Shown here: piece by piece, positions 1,560 to 13,826 of the stretch | How the letters are laid out: each line of letters opens with the position of its first letter | Numbering within the stretch: position 1 is the stretch's first letter | Origin: a virus | DNA length: 24,779 nucleotides | IMG/VR virus record: IMGVR_UViG_3300001450_000176 | Coordinates: 778 to 25,556 of that record | Strand: one strand, 5' to 3' | The notes under the pieces: generated by a model | Seen by the model: the letters and a program-made list of their open reading frames with translations, nothing else | What the model was told of the DNA's origin: nothing | Databases searched by the model: none | Translations under genes and position numbers: made by a program

Positions 1560-2690
1560 ATGAAATTAAGACATTTAGATCTTTTTTCTGGAATAGGTGG
1601 TTTCAGCCTGGGCTTGGAAGCGACAGGTGGATTTGAAACAGTTGCCTTTTGCGATATTGAGAAGTATTGTTTAGAAATTTTAGAAAAAAGATATCCCGGC
1701 GTTCCCCGGTACACGAATATTAAGGAGTTAAACCATGACACAATCAAAACAGATGGAGTTTTTCCAATCGACATCATTACAGGAGGATACCCTTGCCAAC
1801 CTTTCTCCGTTGCAGGTAGAAAAAAAGGTGAAAAAGATCCAAGACATCTCTGGCCAGAAATGTTTAGACTTGTCCAAGAGCTGCGACCGACTTGGGTTAT
1901 TGGAGAAAACGTTAGTGGGCACATTAAACTCGGTCTCGACACCGTTCTCAAGAACTTGGAGAGTGAAGGTTACGCCGCAAGGACGTTTAGTATTTCAGCT
2001 TCGAGCATCGGCGCGAACCACCAAAGAGAAAGAGTCTGGATCGTGGCACACTCCGACAGTAATGGATCATCTTCCAACAAGAACCGAAGAGGCTTTGAAA
2101 AAACAATACATGAATCATCGAAAGGGGAGGACAGAGCATTCAACATTGAGAGATCAAGTAACATTTCCAAAACCAGCTCAAATGTGGCGAACTCCAGACA
2201 ACATGAAAGGGGGCTCGAACCTTCCGGGAATAAAGAAAGCATTGGACGAGGGTCATCTGAAAAGACCGAGTGGTCATCAGATGCAAATCAGACTTCAGGA
2301 TCAAGTCAAAGAGGAGAGATTATGGCCGACACCAAAAACATCGGATCAATACTCAGCTCACATGAAGGAGAACGAAAAGGGAATTCCACACGATGTAGCG
2401 AAGGGCAACCTAAGGGGGATGGTCAAACAATGGCCAACACCTCAAGCGAGCGAACATCACGCGGGGAGACCAGGCGGGAAGATGCAGAAAATGTTGGGCA
2501 ATCATCCAGACGTCCGTGGGACGGGTGGTGGGACATTGAACCCAACGTGGGTAGAGTGGCTAATGGGATACCCAAAAGGGTGGACAGACTTAAATCACTC
2601 GGAAATAGTCTCGTCCCTTCCATTCCCTACTACATCGGACTCAGCATCCTCCAAACCTATGAAGACGAATTGGCCAACACCTCTGAGTAG
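1560..2690 (+). CDS. dcm: DNA cytosine-C5 methyltransferase (Dcm-type)
   Basis: This 376-aa enzyme would transfer a methyl group from S-adenosylmethionine to C5 of cytosine in phage DNA, probably to evade restriction. Visible motifs: AdoMet loop DLFSGIGG (7-14), catalytic PCQPFS with Cys79 (78-83), ENV (116-118), QRERVWIV (155-162) and motif X LKSLGNSLVP (344-353). The start is the ATG at 1560 with GGAGAGAAAGC in front; an in-frame ATG at 1536 lacks this. The stretch from about 165 to 330, where the target recognition domain should be, is a polar Ser/Asn/Arg/Glu-rich run with recurring VANS, MADT and MANT segments. From 1735 onward the DNA also encodes a second protein in the +1 frame. GC content is clearly above the flanks. 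Recognition sequence unknown. Confidence 0.93.
   Translation: MKLRHLDLFSGIGGFSLGLEATGGFETVAFCDIEKYCLEILEKRYPGVPRYTNIKELNHDTIKTDGVFPIDIITGGYPCQPFSVAGRKKGEKDPRHLWPEMFRLVQELRPTWVIGENVSGHIKLGLDTVLKNLESEGYAARTFSISASSIGANHQRERVWIVAHSDSNGSSSNKNRRGFEKTIHESSKGEDRAFNIERSSNISKTSSNVANSRQHERGLEPSGNKESIGRGSSEKTEWSSDANQTSGSSQRGEIMADTKNIGSILSSHEGERKGNSTRCSEGQPKGDGQTMANTSSERTSRGETRREDAENVGQSSRRPWDGWWDIEPNVGRVANGIPKRVDRLKSLGNSLVPSIPYYIGLSILQTYEDELANTSE
1722..1737 (+). promoter_or_regulatory. Strong ribosome binding site inside the methyltransferase gene
   Basis: AAGGAG at 1722-1727 stands 7 nt before the ATG at 1735. It is among the best Shine-Dalgarno matches in the window and lies inside methyltransferase codons, which argues that the overlapping frame at 1735-2958 is really translated. 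Confidence 0.7.
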
Positions 2691-2958
2691 AGATTGGAAA
2701 GATGGAAAAAAAATTCCTCCATCAGTTCGAAAAGGGACAAAAGGTCATTCACTTGCAACAAAAGTTTTGGAAGAAGAAGAAAAGATGTGGCCAACACCAA
2801 CAGCGAATGACGGAAAGCGAGGCGAGATAAACGAAGATGGAACAGTAAAAGATACTTGGAAAAAAAGAAAAGCTAGGTGGGCAGCTAAGGGTGTTCATAT
2901 GCATAAACCTTTAGACATTGCTGTTGCTTTAGATCTGGAGAAAAAAAATGATAAGTAA
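1735..2958 (+). CDS. Overprinted methyltransferase-associated protein with repeated WPTP motifs, 407 aa
   Basis: This long frame starts inside the methyltransferase gene, is +1 relative to it, overlaps it for 956 nt and continues 268 nt beyond. Evidence that it is real: AAGGAG 7 nt before its ATG; six Trp-x-Thr-Pro segments (WHTP 104, WRTP 151, WPTP 197, 233, 313, 352), the last beyond the overlap; a conserved-looking NPTWVEWLMGYPKGW (269-283); and the next gene starting inside its last codons. From memory, similar WPTP and LNPxWVEWLMG proteins occur next to or fused with phage Dcm-type enzymes, but no function is established to my knowledge. A target-recognition or partner subunit for the methyltransferase is possible, since M.EcoHK31I is, as I recall, a C5 enzyme with a second subunit read from an overlapping frame. 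The role is inferred. Confidence 0.8.
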   Translation: MTQSKQMEFFQSTSLQEDTLANLSPLQVEKKVKKIQDISGQKCLDLSKSCDRLGLLEKTLVGTLNSVSTPFSRTWRVKVTPQGRLVFQLRASARTTKEKESGSWHTPTVMDHLPTRTEEALKKQYMNHRKGRTEHSTLRDQVTFPKPAQMWRTPDNMKGGSNLPGIKKALDEGHLKRPSGHQMQIRLQDQVKEERLWPTPKTSDQYSAHMKENEKGIPHDVAKGNLRGMVKQWPTPQASEHHAGRPGGKMQKMLGNHPDVRGTGGGTLNPTWVEWLMGYPKGWTDLNHSEIVSSLPFPTTSDSASSKPMKTNWPTPLSRDWKDGKKIPPSVRKGTKGHSLATKVLEEEEKMWPTPTANDGKRGEINEDGTVKDTWKKRKARWAAKGVHMHKPLDIAVALDLEKKNDK

Positions 2959-8562: not shown

Positions 8563-10166
8563 ATGAAAGTAGAAAAATTTAAAAATATATTTAGTGGTTT
8601 AGACCGTGCACATGGAGAGTATCGTTATACTGACGTAAAAGCTAATGGGAAAAAAGATGGTAAAATGTTCACGAAACACGAACCACCAACTCTTCATATG
8701 TATGAAAATCATTTGGAAGGTAAAGAACCTGCTCTTGGTATTGTGCCAATTCGTGACGATACAACATCTTCATGGGGATGTATTGATGTAGACGAATACC
8801 CTTTGGATCATAAAAAATTATTATCAAAAATAAGAGAATATAATTTACCACTAGTAATGTGCTCATCAAAATCTTTTGGTGCACATATTTTTCTTTTTTC
8901 AAAAAAACCTCAATCTGCTGCTTTATTTCAACAAAAACTTAGAGAGATAGCTTCTTATCTTGGCCATGCAAAAGCAGAAATATTTCCTAAACAAACACAA
9001 CTTGCCAATGAAAGAGATACAGGTTCATGGTTAAATTTACCTTATCATGGTGAAACCCGGTACGCGTATCTTGATAATGGTGAGGGAGCTACTCTCGAAG
9101 AATTCTTTGAACTATATGATAAATATGTTTGTGATGATATCAGTAAAATAACAATGCAGGTTAAACAAGAAGTCATACCTGAAGGACCACCATGCTTACA
9201 AATATTAACAACACAAGGATATCCAGAAGGTACACGCAATAATGGATTATTTAACATAGGAATTTTTTATAGAAAATCTAATCCAGATAATTGGGAGGGT
9301 TTAATGGAAAAATATAACATGGATTATATGGATCCACCTTTGGATGCAGGAGAAATTATTACACTACAAAAACAAGTGAGATCAAACAAAACAGATGGTT
9401 CTGCCAAATATTCTTATCGTTGTAATGATCAACCAATTCTCTCTGTATGTCAAAAAGCTTTATGTAAACTTAGAAAACATGGCATAGGTCAATCTGATTT
9501 TGATCACCCAGAGTACAGTGACTTGTCTGTTTTAGGTGATGAGTTATGGTTTTTAAATGTAGGAGATAGAAGAATAGAAATAGATGATATTGATGTTTTG
9601 TATAGCCATAGATTAATTAGAAAAACTGTTGGTAAACAATTATTAAAATTTGTCCCTTCAATGAAAGATAAAGATTGGGATGAAATTCTTTCTATATTGT
9701 TTGAAAAAATTAGACAAGAAGAAGCTCCTTCTGATGCATCAAAAGTTGGTGAGTTTAATGATTATCTAAAAGAATTTTGCATAGGTAGAGGTGAGGCTTA
9801 TTCTATAGATGAGTTAGACATGCAAAAAGCATTTACAGATAATGAGAAAACAAAAGAGTTTACAATTAATGAAGAAAAAATTGAAGCTAATCCAACTTAT
9901 TTTAGATTAGTAGATCTATCAAAATGGTTAGAAAATAGTAAGAATTTTAAAGTAAAAAGAATTTGGGTTGTTCAAAGATTAAAAGATTTAGGCGGGTTGA
10001 ATATTACAGTTTCTGTTAGAAAATACAAACAAGAGTATGGATGTTACCTGCTTTTGAAAAATCTACAGAAGAAATCGATCTTCCTTCAGTGCTTACTGAG
10101 AAAGAGGTATCAAGAGAAGATCAAGTATTGGGGGGTAAGAATGAAGAAGAGGAAATTCCGTTTTGA
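8563..10166 (+). CDS. AEP-type (archaeo-eukaryotic) primase, frame break near C-terminus
   Basis: A predicted DNA-dependent primase. Visible are the metal-binding CIDVDEY (73-79), SSKSFGAHIFL (101-111, His108) and AEIFPKQ (138-144), plus a later Cys cluster (YRCNDQPILSVCQKALC), giving the catalytic domain then a C-terminal region. The 8563 frame reads sensibly to about 10038. It then becomes basic and low-complexity and runs to 10335 inside the next gene. The true end is visible one frame back: from 10041, MLPAFEKSTEEIDLPS leads to NEEEEIPF and a TGA at 10164 that overlaps the next start as TTGA. One missing base near 10039-10041 (or a -1 shift) joins the parts; I see no slippery heptamer. 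The start has no clear Shine-Dalgarno. Confidence 0.85.
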
Positions 10167-11689
10167 TAAAAATTATTTTAGGTCCACCGGGAACAGGAAA
10201 AACAACGACATTACTAAATATTTGTCAGCAAAAAAAAGAAAGTGGAATAGCTTGGGACAAGATAGGTTTTTTTTCTTTTTCCAAAAAAGCTGCTTACGAA
10301 GCCAGAGACAGAGCCAGAGAAAAGTTTCAAGCTAGTAAAGATGATTTAGTTCACTTTCGTACATTACATAGTTTTGCTTTAAGTCATCTCCCACAAGATG
10401 AAAGTAAGTTAATGAAATCAAAACATTGGAAAGAACTTTCTGAAACAATTGGTTTTAATTTAGTTTTTGATAACAATGATCAATCTATCTATACAAATAC
10501 AAATTATCGTTATGCTAATTTAATTAATTTAGCTCGTTTAAAAGATATTTCTCTTAAAGAAGCATTTGATTTTTATAATGATGAACAGTCAATAAGGTGG
10601 GAGAGATTAGATTATATTGATAGAGCAATAAAAAAATATAAAAAAAAGAATGATGTCTTTGATTTTACTGACATGATAGTTGATTACACAAATGACACAT
10701 TTTCAACACACTTTGATGTGCTCTTTATTGATGAAGCACAAGACATGCCACGCATTCAATACAACATGGTTGATAAACTTATTAAAACAAGCAAAGAAGT
10801 TTACATTGCTGGGGATGATGATCAAGCTATTTTTAGGTGGTCTGGTGCAGATATCGATAAATTTATTAATTTAAAAGGTGATGTTACTGTTTTAAATAAA
10901 TCTTATAGGTGTCCAAAAAGAATTTATAAATTAGCAAATTTTATTATTAGTCACATAAGAAAAAGAAGACCTAAGATTTGGGAACCCAAAGAAGAAGAGG
11001 GTAAAATTTATAGAGTTGCAGCTCTTAAACACATAAATATATCTGAAGGTAATTGGTTAATTTTAGGAAGAACTAAAAAAATTAGAAATGAAATTATAGA
11101 AGATACACTAAAAGATTTAGGTTATTGGTATGGAAGGGGAGAACATAGACCCGTATCACGAACCATAATTGATGCTATAGATATTTGGGAAAAACTACAA
11201 CAAGGTGAATTAATAAGTTTAAAACAAACATCAACACTATATTCAAAAATTAAATCTGAAAAAAAGAAAAATGGTATTGGTATTAAAAGAGGAGGTAAAT
11301 CTTTTAAAGGTGTAAATGAAGATTCTTTATTAAGTCTTGATGACCTTAAAAAAAATCATGGGTTATTATCTGATGGTAATTGGTATGATGTTTTAGATAA
11401 CATAGATGCTTATGAGATTGTTTATTTAAGAAGACTTAAAGATCTTGGTGAAGATTTTAGTAAAGAACCAAGAATAAGAGTGTCAACAATTCATCAAGCT
11501 AAAGGTGGAGAATGTGATAATGTAGTTGTTCTTTTAGATTTAGGTAAATTAGTTTATAAGTCTTATACAAAGAATCCTGATGATGAACACCGGGTATTTT
11601 ATGTAGCTGTTACAAGAGCAAAACAAAATTTGTATATTGTAGAGTCTCAGAAACAAGAAGGTTATAGAATGTATGGTGATGAAAGATGA
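10163..11689 (+). CDS. UvrD/Rep-like superfamily 1A helicase, 508 aa
   Basis: An ATP-dependent DNA helicase for unwinding at the replication fork or in recombination. Motifs: Walker A GPPGTGKTT (7-15), DEAQD (190-194), GDDDQAIFRWSGAD (217-230), SYRCP (247-251), STIHQAKGGECDNVV near residue 446, and VFYVAVTRAKQNLYIV near residue 477. It is shorter than cellular UvrD because the 1B/2B subdomains are reduced, as in many phage versions. The start is TTG at 10163, overlapping the primase TGA. The 3' end overlaps the next ATG by 4 nt. Frame intact throughout. Confidence 0.93.
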   Translation: MIKIILGPPGTGKTTTLLNICQQKKESGIAWDKIGFFSFSKKAAYEARDRAREKFQASKDDLVHFRTLHSFALSHLPQDESKLMKSKHWKELSETIGFNLVFDNNDQSIYTNTNYRYANLINLARLKDISLKEAFDFYNDEQSIRWERLDYIDRAIKKYKKKNDVFDFTDMIVDYTNDTFSTHFDVLFIDEAQDMPRIQYNMVDKLIKTSKEVYIAGDDDQAIFRWSGADIDKFINLKGDVTVLNKSYRCPKRIYKLANFIISHIRKRRPKIWEPKEEEGKIYRVAALKHINISEGNWLILGRTKKIRNEIIEDTLKDLGYWYGRGEHRPVSRTIIDAIDIWEKLQQGELISLKQTSTLYSKIKSEKKKNGIGIKRGGKSFKGVNEDSLLSLDDLKKNHGLLSDGNWYDVLDNIDAYEIVYLRRLKDLGEDFSKEPRIRVSTIHQAKGGECDNVVVLLDLGKLVYKSYTKNPDDEHRVFYVAVTRAKQNLYIVESQKQEGYRMYGDER

Positions 11690-11961
11690 TATCTAAAGAA
11701 ATATTACAAGAAGCATCAGATCTTATAGGCGGAGAAAGGAATAAAGATTACGGAGATAAACTTAAAAATCATCAGCGCATAGCTGATTTATGGTCTATTT
11801 TTTTAGAAATAAAAATAGAACCAGAGCAAGTTGCTATCATGATGGGTTTAGTAAAAATAGCTAGGATTATGCATTCTTCTAAAAAAGATAACTTTGTTGA
11901 TTTAGCTGCATATGCAAGCATAGCTGGTGAAATAGTTCAACGAAAGGGTAAAAATGACTAA
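11686..11961 (+). CDS. DUF6378-like phage protein, 91 aa
   Basis: The 91-aa helical protein contains LIGGERNKDYGDKLKNHQRI, then ADLWSIFL and a later FVDLAAYASIAGEI. This combination (R-x-K-D-Y-G-D, N-H-x-R-I, W, then D-x-A-x-Y-A) matches the conserved phage DUF6378 domain as I know it; function is unknown. The pattern vaguely recalls MazG-like all-alpha nucleotide pyrophosphatases, which would suit a replication operon, but the metal-binding residues are not clearly present. It overlaps both neighbours, 4 nt upstream and 8 nt downstream. Confidence 0.85.
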   Translation: MISKEILQEASDLIGGERNKDYGDKLKNHQRIADLWSIFLEIKIEPEQVAIMMGLVKIARIMHSSKKDNFVDLAAYASIAGEIVQRKGKND

Positions 11962-13826
11962 TGTTACACAAACAAATTTTTTTAAACCAAAGCCAGAATG
12001 GATTCCTCCACATGAATTACCTGACATTTTTGATGCAAGAGTTATTGCTTTTGATTTAGAAACTTATGATCCAGAATTAAAAAATAGTGGCCCTGGTTGG
12101 ACAACAAAACAAGGCCATATAATAGGTATTGCTGTAGCTGTTGATGGATGGAAAGGTTATTATCCTATAAGACACGAAAATGGTTTTAATTGGGATAGAA
12201 GAAGAGTCATTAATTGGTTTACAAAATTAATGAAAACAGATGCTATAAAAGTAGCTCACAATGCTCTTTATGATTTAGGATGGCTTCATGCAGAAGGTAT
12301 TGAGGTAAACGGGCCAATAGTGGACACAATGATAATGGCTCCCATAATAAATGAAAATAAATTTTCTTATGCTTTAAATGCTGTGGGAAAAGATATGTTG
12401 AACGAATGGAAAGATGAAAACTTATTAAAACAAGCTGCTACTGAGTTTGGTGTAAATCCAAAAAGTGAAATGTATAAACTACCAGCTATTTTTGTTGGCT
12501 CATATGCTGAACAAGATGCTGACTTAACATTAAGATTATATCATCACATGATACCTATAATTGAAAAAGAAAGTCTTAAAGATGTTTATAATTTAGAAAT
12601 GAGTTTGTTACCCATAATATTTAATATGATTAAAAAAGGAGTAAGGGTTGATGTTCAAAAAGCACAAAGTTATAAAAAAAGTTTTAAGAATACAGAAAAG
12701 AAGATATTGGATAGTGTATTGGCAGACACGGGTATTGCAGTTGATGTTTGGGCTGCAGCAAGTGTGGCGAAAGTTTTTGATAAACTTAAAATAAAATATC
12801 CAAGAACAGAGAAAACTAAAGCACCTAGTTTCACAAAAGATTTTTTACTTAATCATTCTCATCCAATTGCTAAAAAAATACAGAGTGCTAGAGAATATAA
12901 TAAAGTTCAATCAACATTTTTAGATACAATTTTAAAACATGGTAAAACAGGAAGAGTTCATGCAAGTATTCATCAAATGCGTGATGGAGAATCAGGTACT
13001 TTAACAGGTCGTTTAAGTTATTCTAATCCAAATTTACAACAACTACCTTCTCGTAATAAAGAAATTAAGAGAAAAATAAGAGGTTTATTTTTACCAGAGG
13101 AGGGTGAGACATGGGGATCTTTTGACTATAGTCAACAAGAACCACGGATCGCGTCACACTATGCATTTGCTCTTGGATGCGAAGGATCTGAAAAAATTGT
13201 AGAAGAATATACAAAAAATCCCAAAGCAGATTTCCACAATATAGTAGCAGAAATAGCTAAGATCGAAAGGGATCAAGCCAAAACTATTAACTTAGGATTG
13301 TTTTATGGAATGGGTGTTAATAAACTTTCTAATGAACTGCAAGTAGATGTTGATGTTGCAAGGGAGATCTTAAAGGAGTACAATAATAAAGTACCTTTCG
13401 TTAAGGATTTAGCGACAACGGTAACAAATTACGCCAACAGTGAAGGTTATGTCACAACACTCAAGGGAAGAAAATGTAGATTTGAATTGTGGGAACCAAC
13501 CACCTTTGGCGTATTTAAAGCACTCCCAAAAGAACAAGCAAAATTAAAATATGGTAAGCATCATCATTTAAAACCTGCGGGAACATACAAAGCCTTAAAT
13601 AGATTAATACAAGGATCAGCTGCTGATCAAACAAAACAAGCAATGATAGAATTACACAAAGAAGGTAACTCCTTTAATACAAATTCACGATGAACTCACT
13701 TTAAGTTTTGATGGCTCTGAAGAAACAAAAAATAAAATTATTTCGATAATGGAAAATGCAATTAAATTATCTGTCCCAAGTAAAGTTGATTGCGATGTAG
13801 GAAAATCGTGGGGAGATGCTGTTTAA
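11954..13826 (+). CDS. Family A DNA polymerase with 3'-5' exonuclease domain, frame break before motif C
   Basis: The replicative phage polymerase. Exonuclease: DLET (34-37), HNALYD (102-107), YAEQD (184-188). Polymerase: TGRLSYSNPNLQQLP (351-365), motif A FDYSQQEPR (Asp391), motif B RDQAKTINLGLFYG with Arg439, Lys443 and Tyr451. The 11954 frame stops at 13693 after HKEGNSFNTNSR, before motif C. In the frame one base further on, from 13668, the DNA reads TPLIQIHDELTLSFDG and continues to GKSWGDAV and a TAA at 13824. That restores the essential His-Asp-Glu motif C and a normal C-terminus, about 624 aa in all. So one extra base or two missing bases lie near 13665-13670. It overlaps the DUF6378-like gene and ends the replication operon. 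Confidence 0.93.

Follow-up and report, generated by a model that had tools for sequence, protein, structure and literature searches.

A C5 cytosine methyltransferase gene in the genome of a marine phage is overlapped in the +1 register by a second long open reading frame, which raises the question of whether the second frame is translated and what its product does. The locus lies in a stretch of 24,779 nucleotides (positions 778 to 25,556 of IMG/VR record IMGVR_UViG_3300001450_000176), which we call the window; all coordinates refer to it. The original prediction, made from the sequence alone, proposed that the second protein may be a partner subunit responsible for DNA recognition. Our analysis makes it highly probable that the two products, here named alpha and beta, are two subunits of one phage C5 methyltransferase, with beta supplying the target-recognition domain and motif IX.

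Layout of the overlapping genes

The two genes and the elements of alpha are as follows.

1560..2690, + strand: alpha, putative catalytic subunit of a C5 cytosine methyltransferase, 376 aa (PF00145, 1e-42; phrog_363, 3.7e-77; AF2 core resembling M.HhaI and M.HaeIII)
1735..2958, + strand: beta, putative second subunit, +1 frame, 407 aa (phrog_1008, 5.7e-38; +1 overlap kept in 281/284 loci)
1722..1727, + strand: AAGGAG ribosome-binding site of beta, 7 nt 5' of its ATG
1578..1604, + strand: alpha motif I (DLFSGIGGF), sequence and conserved columns
1782..1808, + strand: alpha motif IV with the catalytic Cys (GGYPCQPFS), inside the overlap, sequence and conserved columns
1905..1913, + strand: alpha motif VI (ENV), invariant columns
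2022..2045, + strand: alpha motif VIII (QRERVWIV); selection changes frame just 3' of it
2079..2510, + strand: alpha residues 174-317, predicted disordered, an out-of-frame reading of the beta recognition region (pLDDT 30-48; dN/dS 1.17)
2598..2618, + strand: alpha motif X (LGNSLVP), nearly invariant (helix 354-375, pLDDT 81-94)

The alpha start codon lies at 1560 and that of beta at 1735, and the overlap of 956 nt begins at alpha residue 59. The elements on which the original prediction had drawn were recovered in the window: both long frames, the ribosome-binding site of beta, the repeated WPTP motifs (six WxTP starts), the NPTWVEWLMG block at about 2539-2568, and an extension of beta 268 nt past the alpha stop, in which WPTP units start at 2671 and 2788. 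The methyltransferase has kept its conserved motifs, as had been noted, since the PF00145 match includes I, IV, VI, VIII and X. The overlap had also been placed exactly on the target-recognition region of alpha; that region is indeed covered, but the catalytic motifs IV, VI and VIII lie inside the overlap too.

The overlap has a G+C content of 0.48 and the whole window one of 0.32. When the synonymous codons of alpha were shuffled, the beta frame acquired 3.3 stops on average, whereas none is observed (p=0.0045). With beta held fixed, shuffling gave 11.6 stops in the alpha frame, again against none observed (p<0.0005). It is therefore unlikely that both frames are open by chance.

Other frame irregularities were seen elsewhere in the window. 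A family A DNA polymerase frame (11954-13740) ends at 13693, and the expected continuation, IHDELTLSF, is open in the next frame; this one-frame break near 13680 is either an assembly error or real. At 10050-10335, the primase frame (8563-10335) has an odd basic tail and shares 173 nt with the helicase frame (10163-11689), and an acidic tail that ends near 10163 is read in another frame. This overlap is possibly another single-base frame break.

Conservation of the overlap among relatives

The +1 overlap is kept in 281 of 284 distinct, de-duplicated related loci, with a median length of 815 nt; one locus was scored as +2. Because the loci (numbered L below) were collected by family queries and not drawn at random, this figure describes conservation inside the family and is no estimate of the frequency among C5 enzymes at large. 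In the first 167 loci, half of which were found through alpha only, a +1 frame matching beta was always present. When the beta profile was run against bacterial genomes, 76 of 80 loci showed the overlap, spread over many phyla (by record title, Bacteroidetes, Firmicutes, Proteobacteria, Spirochaetes, Acidobacteria, Planctomycetes, Nitrospira, Chloroflexi and others), and an independent scan of IMG/VR with the alpha profile found the overlap in 71/71 new loci. Plasmids yielded only four weak relatives.

Ordinary enzymes behave differently. The controls were 21 full-length single-chain C5 enzymes (20 from bacterial genomes that carry the family, one from a Streptococcus phage); their +1 frame holds 12-36 stops and its longest opening is 29-160 aa. 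The beta profile gave only two weak N-terminal matches to these controls (21 and 14 bits). Homologues in which stops fill the second frame, which the original prediction had named as evidence against itself, were found among ordinary single-chain enzymes only and not within the family.

In one Roseovarius chromosome the alpha/beta locus occurs five times with identical scores (L188-L192), perhaps as repeated prophages. In a Synergistaceae MAG (L209, 1143-2643), alpha is split by an HNH-endonuclease-like insertion resembling an intron or homing element, and alpha resumes in another frame.

Selection in the two frames

Selection was examined in 16 independent close pairs, with dN/dS by the Nei-Gojobori method without correction for the overlap and with one set of substitutions used to score both frames. 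Counted by alpha codon position (1/2/3), the differences were 99/85/212 before the overlap and 136/71/217 in the stretch from motif IV to VIII, and they changed to 496/238/255 in the recognition region (Fisher p=1.7e-24). There, the most variable position was the third base of beta in 16/16 pairs (p=2e-8). The dN/dS of alpha was 0.22 before the overlap, 0.29 in IV-VIII and 1.17 in the recognition region, while that of beta was 0.92 in IV-VIII, 0.23 in the recognition region, 0.15 at IX-X and 0.22 in the tail, and the two frames point in opposite directions in the recognition region (1.17 vs 0.23). These results show that selection passes from the alpha frame to the beta frame after motif VIII. 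The check that had been proposed at the outset, purifying selection in each frame separately, gave a positive answer for alpha up to motif VIII (0.22-0.29) and for beta across the recognition region; in that region the excess of synonymous change in the second frame, whose lack would have spoken against dual coding, is present in all 16 pairs.

The coding role of the beta N-terminus is less firmly shown, because the beta dN/dS is 0.92 in IV-VIII. Alpha third positions change there at half the rate seen upstream (0.122 against 0.244; Wilcoxon p=6e-4), which would follow from a coding beta in this stretch; it is a weaker line of evidence.

The alpha chain

By its PF00145 domain and motifs I, IV (PCQ), VI (ENV) and VIII (QRxR), alpha is a C5 methyltransferase. 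A fold search with its AF2 model returned M.HhaI, M.HaeIII and DNMT1, and PADLOC gave generic methyltransferase matches to alpha and none to beta. The model is mostly confident at residues 1-165 and 340-375. Residues 174-317, which had been suspected of disorder from the sequence, are predicted at pLDDT 30-48 and have no secondary structure except for three residues; alignments of alpha with PDB sequences stop at about residue 165. With this stretch disordered and evolving at dN/dS 1.17, a target-recognition domain and a motif IX of its own are absent from the alpha chain.

The beta chain

The regions of beta are as follows.

1849..2043, + strand: N-terminal conserved region (SGQKCL...TWRVKVTPQGRLVFQL), dual-coding with alpha IV-VIII, conserved columns
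2044..2184, + strand: recognition unit 1 (WHTPTVMDH...), wholly absent in the 97%-identical L085
2185..2322, + strand: recognition unit 2 (WRTPDNMKGG..., type T2)
2323..2430, + strand: recognition unit 3 (WPTPKTSDQ...), absent in L002 and L086
2431..2535, + strand: recognition unit 4 (WPTPQASEH..., type T6)
2536..2592, + strand: motif IX-like block (LNPTWVEWLMGYPKGWTDL), from order and position in L250, L223 and L212
2671..2787, + strand: unit after motif IX (WPTPLSRDW..., type T9), mostly past the alpha stop (tail dN/dS 0.22)
2788..2958, + strand: last unit and C-terminus (WPTPTAND..., type T19)

A Shine-Dalgarno-like motif precedes 124 of 141 beta starts, against 312 of 1314 internal ATGs. 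The distance from the motif IX block of beta to the GN of motif X in alpha is exactly 53 nt in 124 of 133 loci. The profile match of beta, phrog_1008 (5.7e-38), is labelled 'DNA methyltransferase'; no match was found in Pfam or NCBIfam, and no relative in PDB by sequence, either as a single query or as a profile. AlphaFold modelled beta alone with low confidence (pLDDT 61, pTM 0.30), and a fold search with this poor model gave chance matches only. A poor stand-alone fold is what a partner-dependent domain might show. Alignment of the beta profile with canonical C5 C-terminal domains by hhalign was not significant (probability value 0.14), the best local match in this non-significant comparison being EWLMGYPKGWTD to motif IX. 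Motif IX was assigned to beta by order and spacing in L250, L223 and L212.

Three units of the beta frame (starting at 2431, 2671 and 2788) open with one exact 11-mer, TGGCCAACACC, which could be a recombination point for unit shuffling.

Relatives with the parts rearranged

Several relatives carry the same parts in another arrangement. In L131, alpha stops right after motif VIII; from there on many stops fill its frame, while beta is open to the contig end. L223 and L212 have an alpha of motifs I-VIII only, and a beta in which modules, NPDWVEWLMG and motif X follow in one frame. In L239, alpha has both I-VIII and X; the modules and motif IX are in a frame further downstream that has essentially no overlap with it. 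The mycobacteriophage Kingmustik0402 (L251) has two adjacent genes, gp79 with I-VIII and gp78 with modules, IX and X. All parts are found in a single chain in gp71 of mycobacteriophage IrishSherpFalk (L250), in the order I-VIII, LPTP modules, EWMMGWP and GNGVVP, and its spacing from IX to X equals that of the ordinary enzyme L257. Moreover, phrog_1008 matches both the in-frame C-terminal half of L250 (1.3e-57) and the window beta, and one in-frame unit of L250 is 77% identical to a +1-frame unit of L303. From these rearranged relatives, the phrog_1008 match and the unit common to L250 and L303, it is very likely that the content of beta is a methyltransferase recognition region together with motif IX.

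Putative recognition units as an exchangeable array

The recognition region of beta is a row of W/F/L-x-T-P units with a median spacing of 40 aa (10th-90th percentile, 29-52 aa). Mostly 1-7 units stand before motif IX, and their number tracks the length (rho 0.73). Betas whose remaining sequence is at least 85% identical differ by 38 distinct indels of at least 20 aa. Of these, 31 start no more than 3 aa from a unit boundary, where 6.0 would be expected, and almost every one of the 31 covers a single whole unit. Pairs that differ by a single-unit indel are L154/L155 (99.7% identical), L101/L109, L119/L126 and window/L085. Unit types are also common to otherwise distant betas; T12, for example, was found in 16 betas whose N-terminal identity goes down to 0.23. 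The types recombine freely, as in T2-T32-T14-T7-T5, T2-T23-T14-T32-T5 and T2-T14-T5, and 214 distinct arrays were counted among 253. These data show that WPTP units are gained, lost and shuffled as wholes, and suggest that the array serves mix-and-match, multi-target recognition.

In the window, the array reads unit 1, T2, unit 3, T6, motif IX, T9 and T19, with types taken from the 93%-identical relative L001. T9 and T19 lie mostly past the alpha stop here and T9 is found before motif IX in other betas, which indicates that the units need no dual coding.

We lean towards the reading in which a widespread vocabulary of units of about 40 residues, each for one short DNA target, is shuffled across phages and bacteria of many phyla in the +1 frame of alpha. 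Since the units would be read in the +1 frame of the alpha gene, each swap would have to leave both frames open.

Unit types T0, T4, T15 and T20 are nearly always first, and T6, T10 and T16 always last before motif IX; the position of a unit may have a structural role.

Alternative explanations and the proposed mechanism

That beta is not translated, its +1 frame being a mirror of the constraints on alpha and of base composition, is extremely improbable. Part of the beta N-terminal profile does mirror alpha, because two ordinary enzymes match it weakly (14-21 bits); however, the recognition region is conserved in beta and unconserved in alpha, beta past the alpha stop has a dN/dS of 0.22 and stays open where the alpha frame of L131 is full of stops, and ordinary enzymes carry 12-36 stops in +1. 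Beta might instead be an overprinted protein with another job outside the methyltransferase, for example an inhibitor or anti-restriction protein, as its poor stand-alone fold and lack of a solved or Pfam relative would allow. We regard this as very improbable, because a beta unit lies in frame inside the single-chain methyltransferase L250, and the units with the IX block are fused to motif X in L223 and L212. A +1 ribosomal frameshift from alpha, giving a fused protein of I-VIII, recognition region and IX with no separate beta subunit, would agree with the single-chain relatives such as L250 and with a recognition region that directly continues motif VIII in +1. It is very improbable in view of the conserved ribosome-binding site of beta (124/141), the roughly 100 beta residues upstream of the switch point, motif X, which stays in alpha's own frame, and the relatives in which alpha ends after VIII (L223, L212, L131) or beta is essentially non-overlapping (L239).

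The remaining alternative keeps beta as the partner subunit and concerns how it reads DNA: the WPTP units would read one long compound site in series, in the manner of TALE repeats. The regular spacing of about 40 residues, the variable number of units and the preference of some types for the first or last position are in line with it. Serial readers reuse types, whereas the same type occurs twice in none of the 253 arrays (13.8 expected), and the unit lengths vary (spacing 29-52 aa between the 10th and 90th percentiles). Serial reading is therefore rather unlikely, and the lack of repeated types argues for parallel reading, with one target per unit.

Taken together, we infer that alpha and beta are both made and assemble into one methyltransferase, and that beta reads the DNA with one target per unit. 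Alpha would fold the catalytic domain, with AdoMet binding, the catalytic Cys and motifs I-VIII and X. Beta would be translated from its own start within the alpha gene and provide the parts missing from alpha, namely the target-recognition domain and motif IX. The alpha reading of the recognition stretch would be a mere disordered linker, whose frame is proposed to stay open because the ribosome must reach motif X. Each interchangeable WPTP unit of about 40 residues probably reads one DNA site; if so, one enzyme could shield phage DNA from several host restriction enzymes, and the function is probably anti-restriction through multi-target methylation. The proposed role of beta as the recognition partner is supported by the change of frame under selection, the predicted disorder of the alpha linker, the naturally rearranged relatives and the modules that are shared. 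Beyond that proposal, the recognition region is a shuffling module array, and motif IX appears to have moved into beta.

Annotation and significance

Members of the same gene family are already clustered in PHROGs, sometimes annotated as DNA methyltransferase; to it belong phrog_1008, the 'g55 internal gene' of Paenibacillus phage Shelly and the 'Mte8-like' ORF28 of coliphage K1H. Most inspected records annotate just one of the two frames. In the record of Komagataeibacter phage phiKX1 (L164), a piece of beta is a hypothetical protein and alpha is unannotated, and many phage records show the reverse. Literature searches on overlapping methyltransferase genes in phages did not return a description of the function, subunit role, modularity or breadth of this family.

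Dual coding that is both long and deeply conserved is rare. Here it occurs in several hundred related pairs, accompanied by fused, split and separated relatives, which makes the alpha/beta locus a tractable system for the evolvability of overlapping genes. If our reading is true, phrog_1008 and its kin, a large and mostly unannotated family, would be the specificity subunit of phage methyltransferases. A unit-by-unit code would then be open to long-read methylome data, and could help to predict which restriction systems are evaded and to build methyltransferases of chosen specificity.

Comparison with known systems

In M.EcoHK31I, the gene of the large subunit also contains, in an alternative frame, the coding sequence of the small subunit, and the window beta is likewise encoded in an alternative frame overlapping the alpha gene. 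This enzyme had been named as a precedent in the original prediction, and PMC3404938 confirms it: M.EcoHK31I (YGGCCR) is described there as a two-polypeptide C5 enzyme whose large subunit has motifs I-VIII and X and whose small subunit alone has motif IX. Compared by motif layout, the window pair is the same, with I-VIII and X in alpha and IX in beta. That source reports the recognition domain of M.EcoHK31I as predicted in the large subunit, whereas selection and modules place that of the window in beta, which also bears a variable array of WPTP units. M.EcoHK31I is the nearest analogue of the window pair in its proposed way of working.

M.AquI is also a C5 methyltransferase of alpha and beta subunits, and L223, L212 and L251 similarly put motifs IX and X in the second subunit. 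The window, unlike M.AquI, keeps X in alpha and has only IX in beta; M.AquI is split within the variable region.

The multispecific C5 enzymes of Bacillus temperate phages, as described in PMC12707154 with reference to Trautner et al. 1996, carry several arrayed recognition domains against many restriction systems. The window beta resembles them in its exchangeable array of units of about 40 aa; their domains share one polypeptide with the catalytic part, whereas the window array lies in a separate polypeptide encoded in an overlapping frame. What is new here is the combination of the overlapping frame with the WPTP unit array, and the scale on which it occurs.
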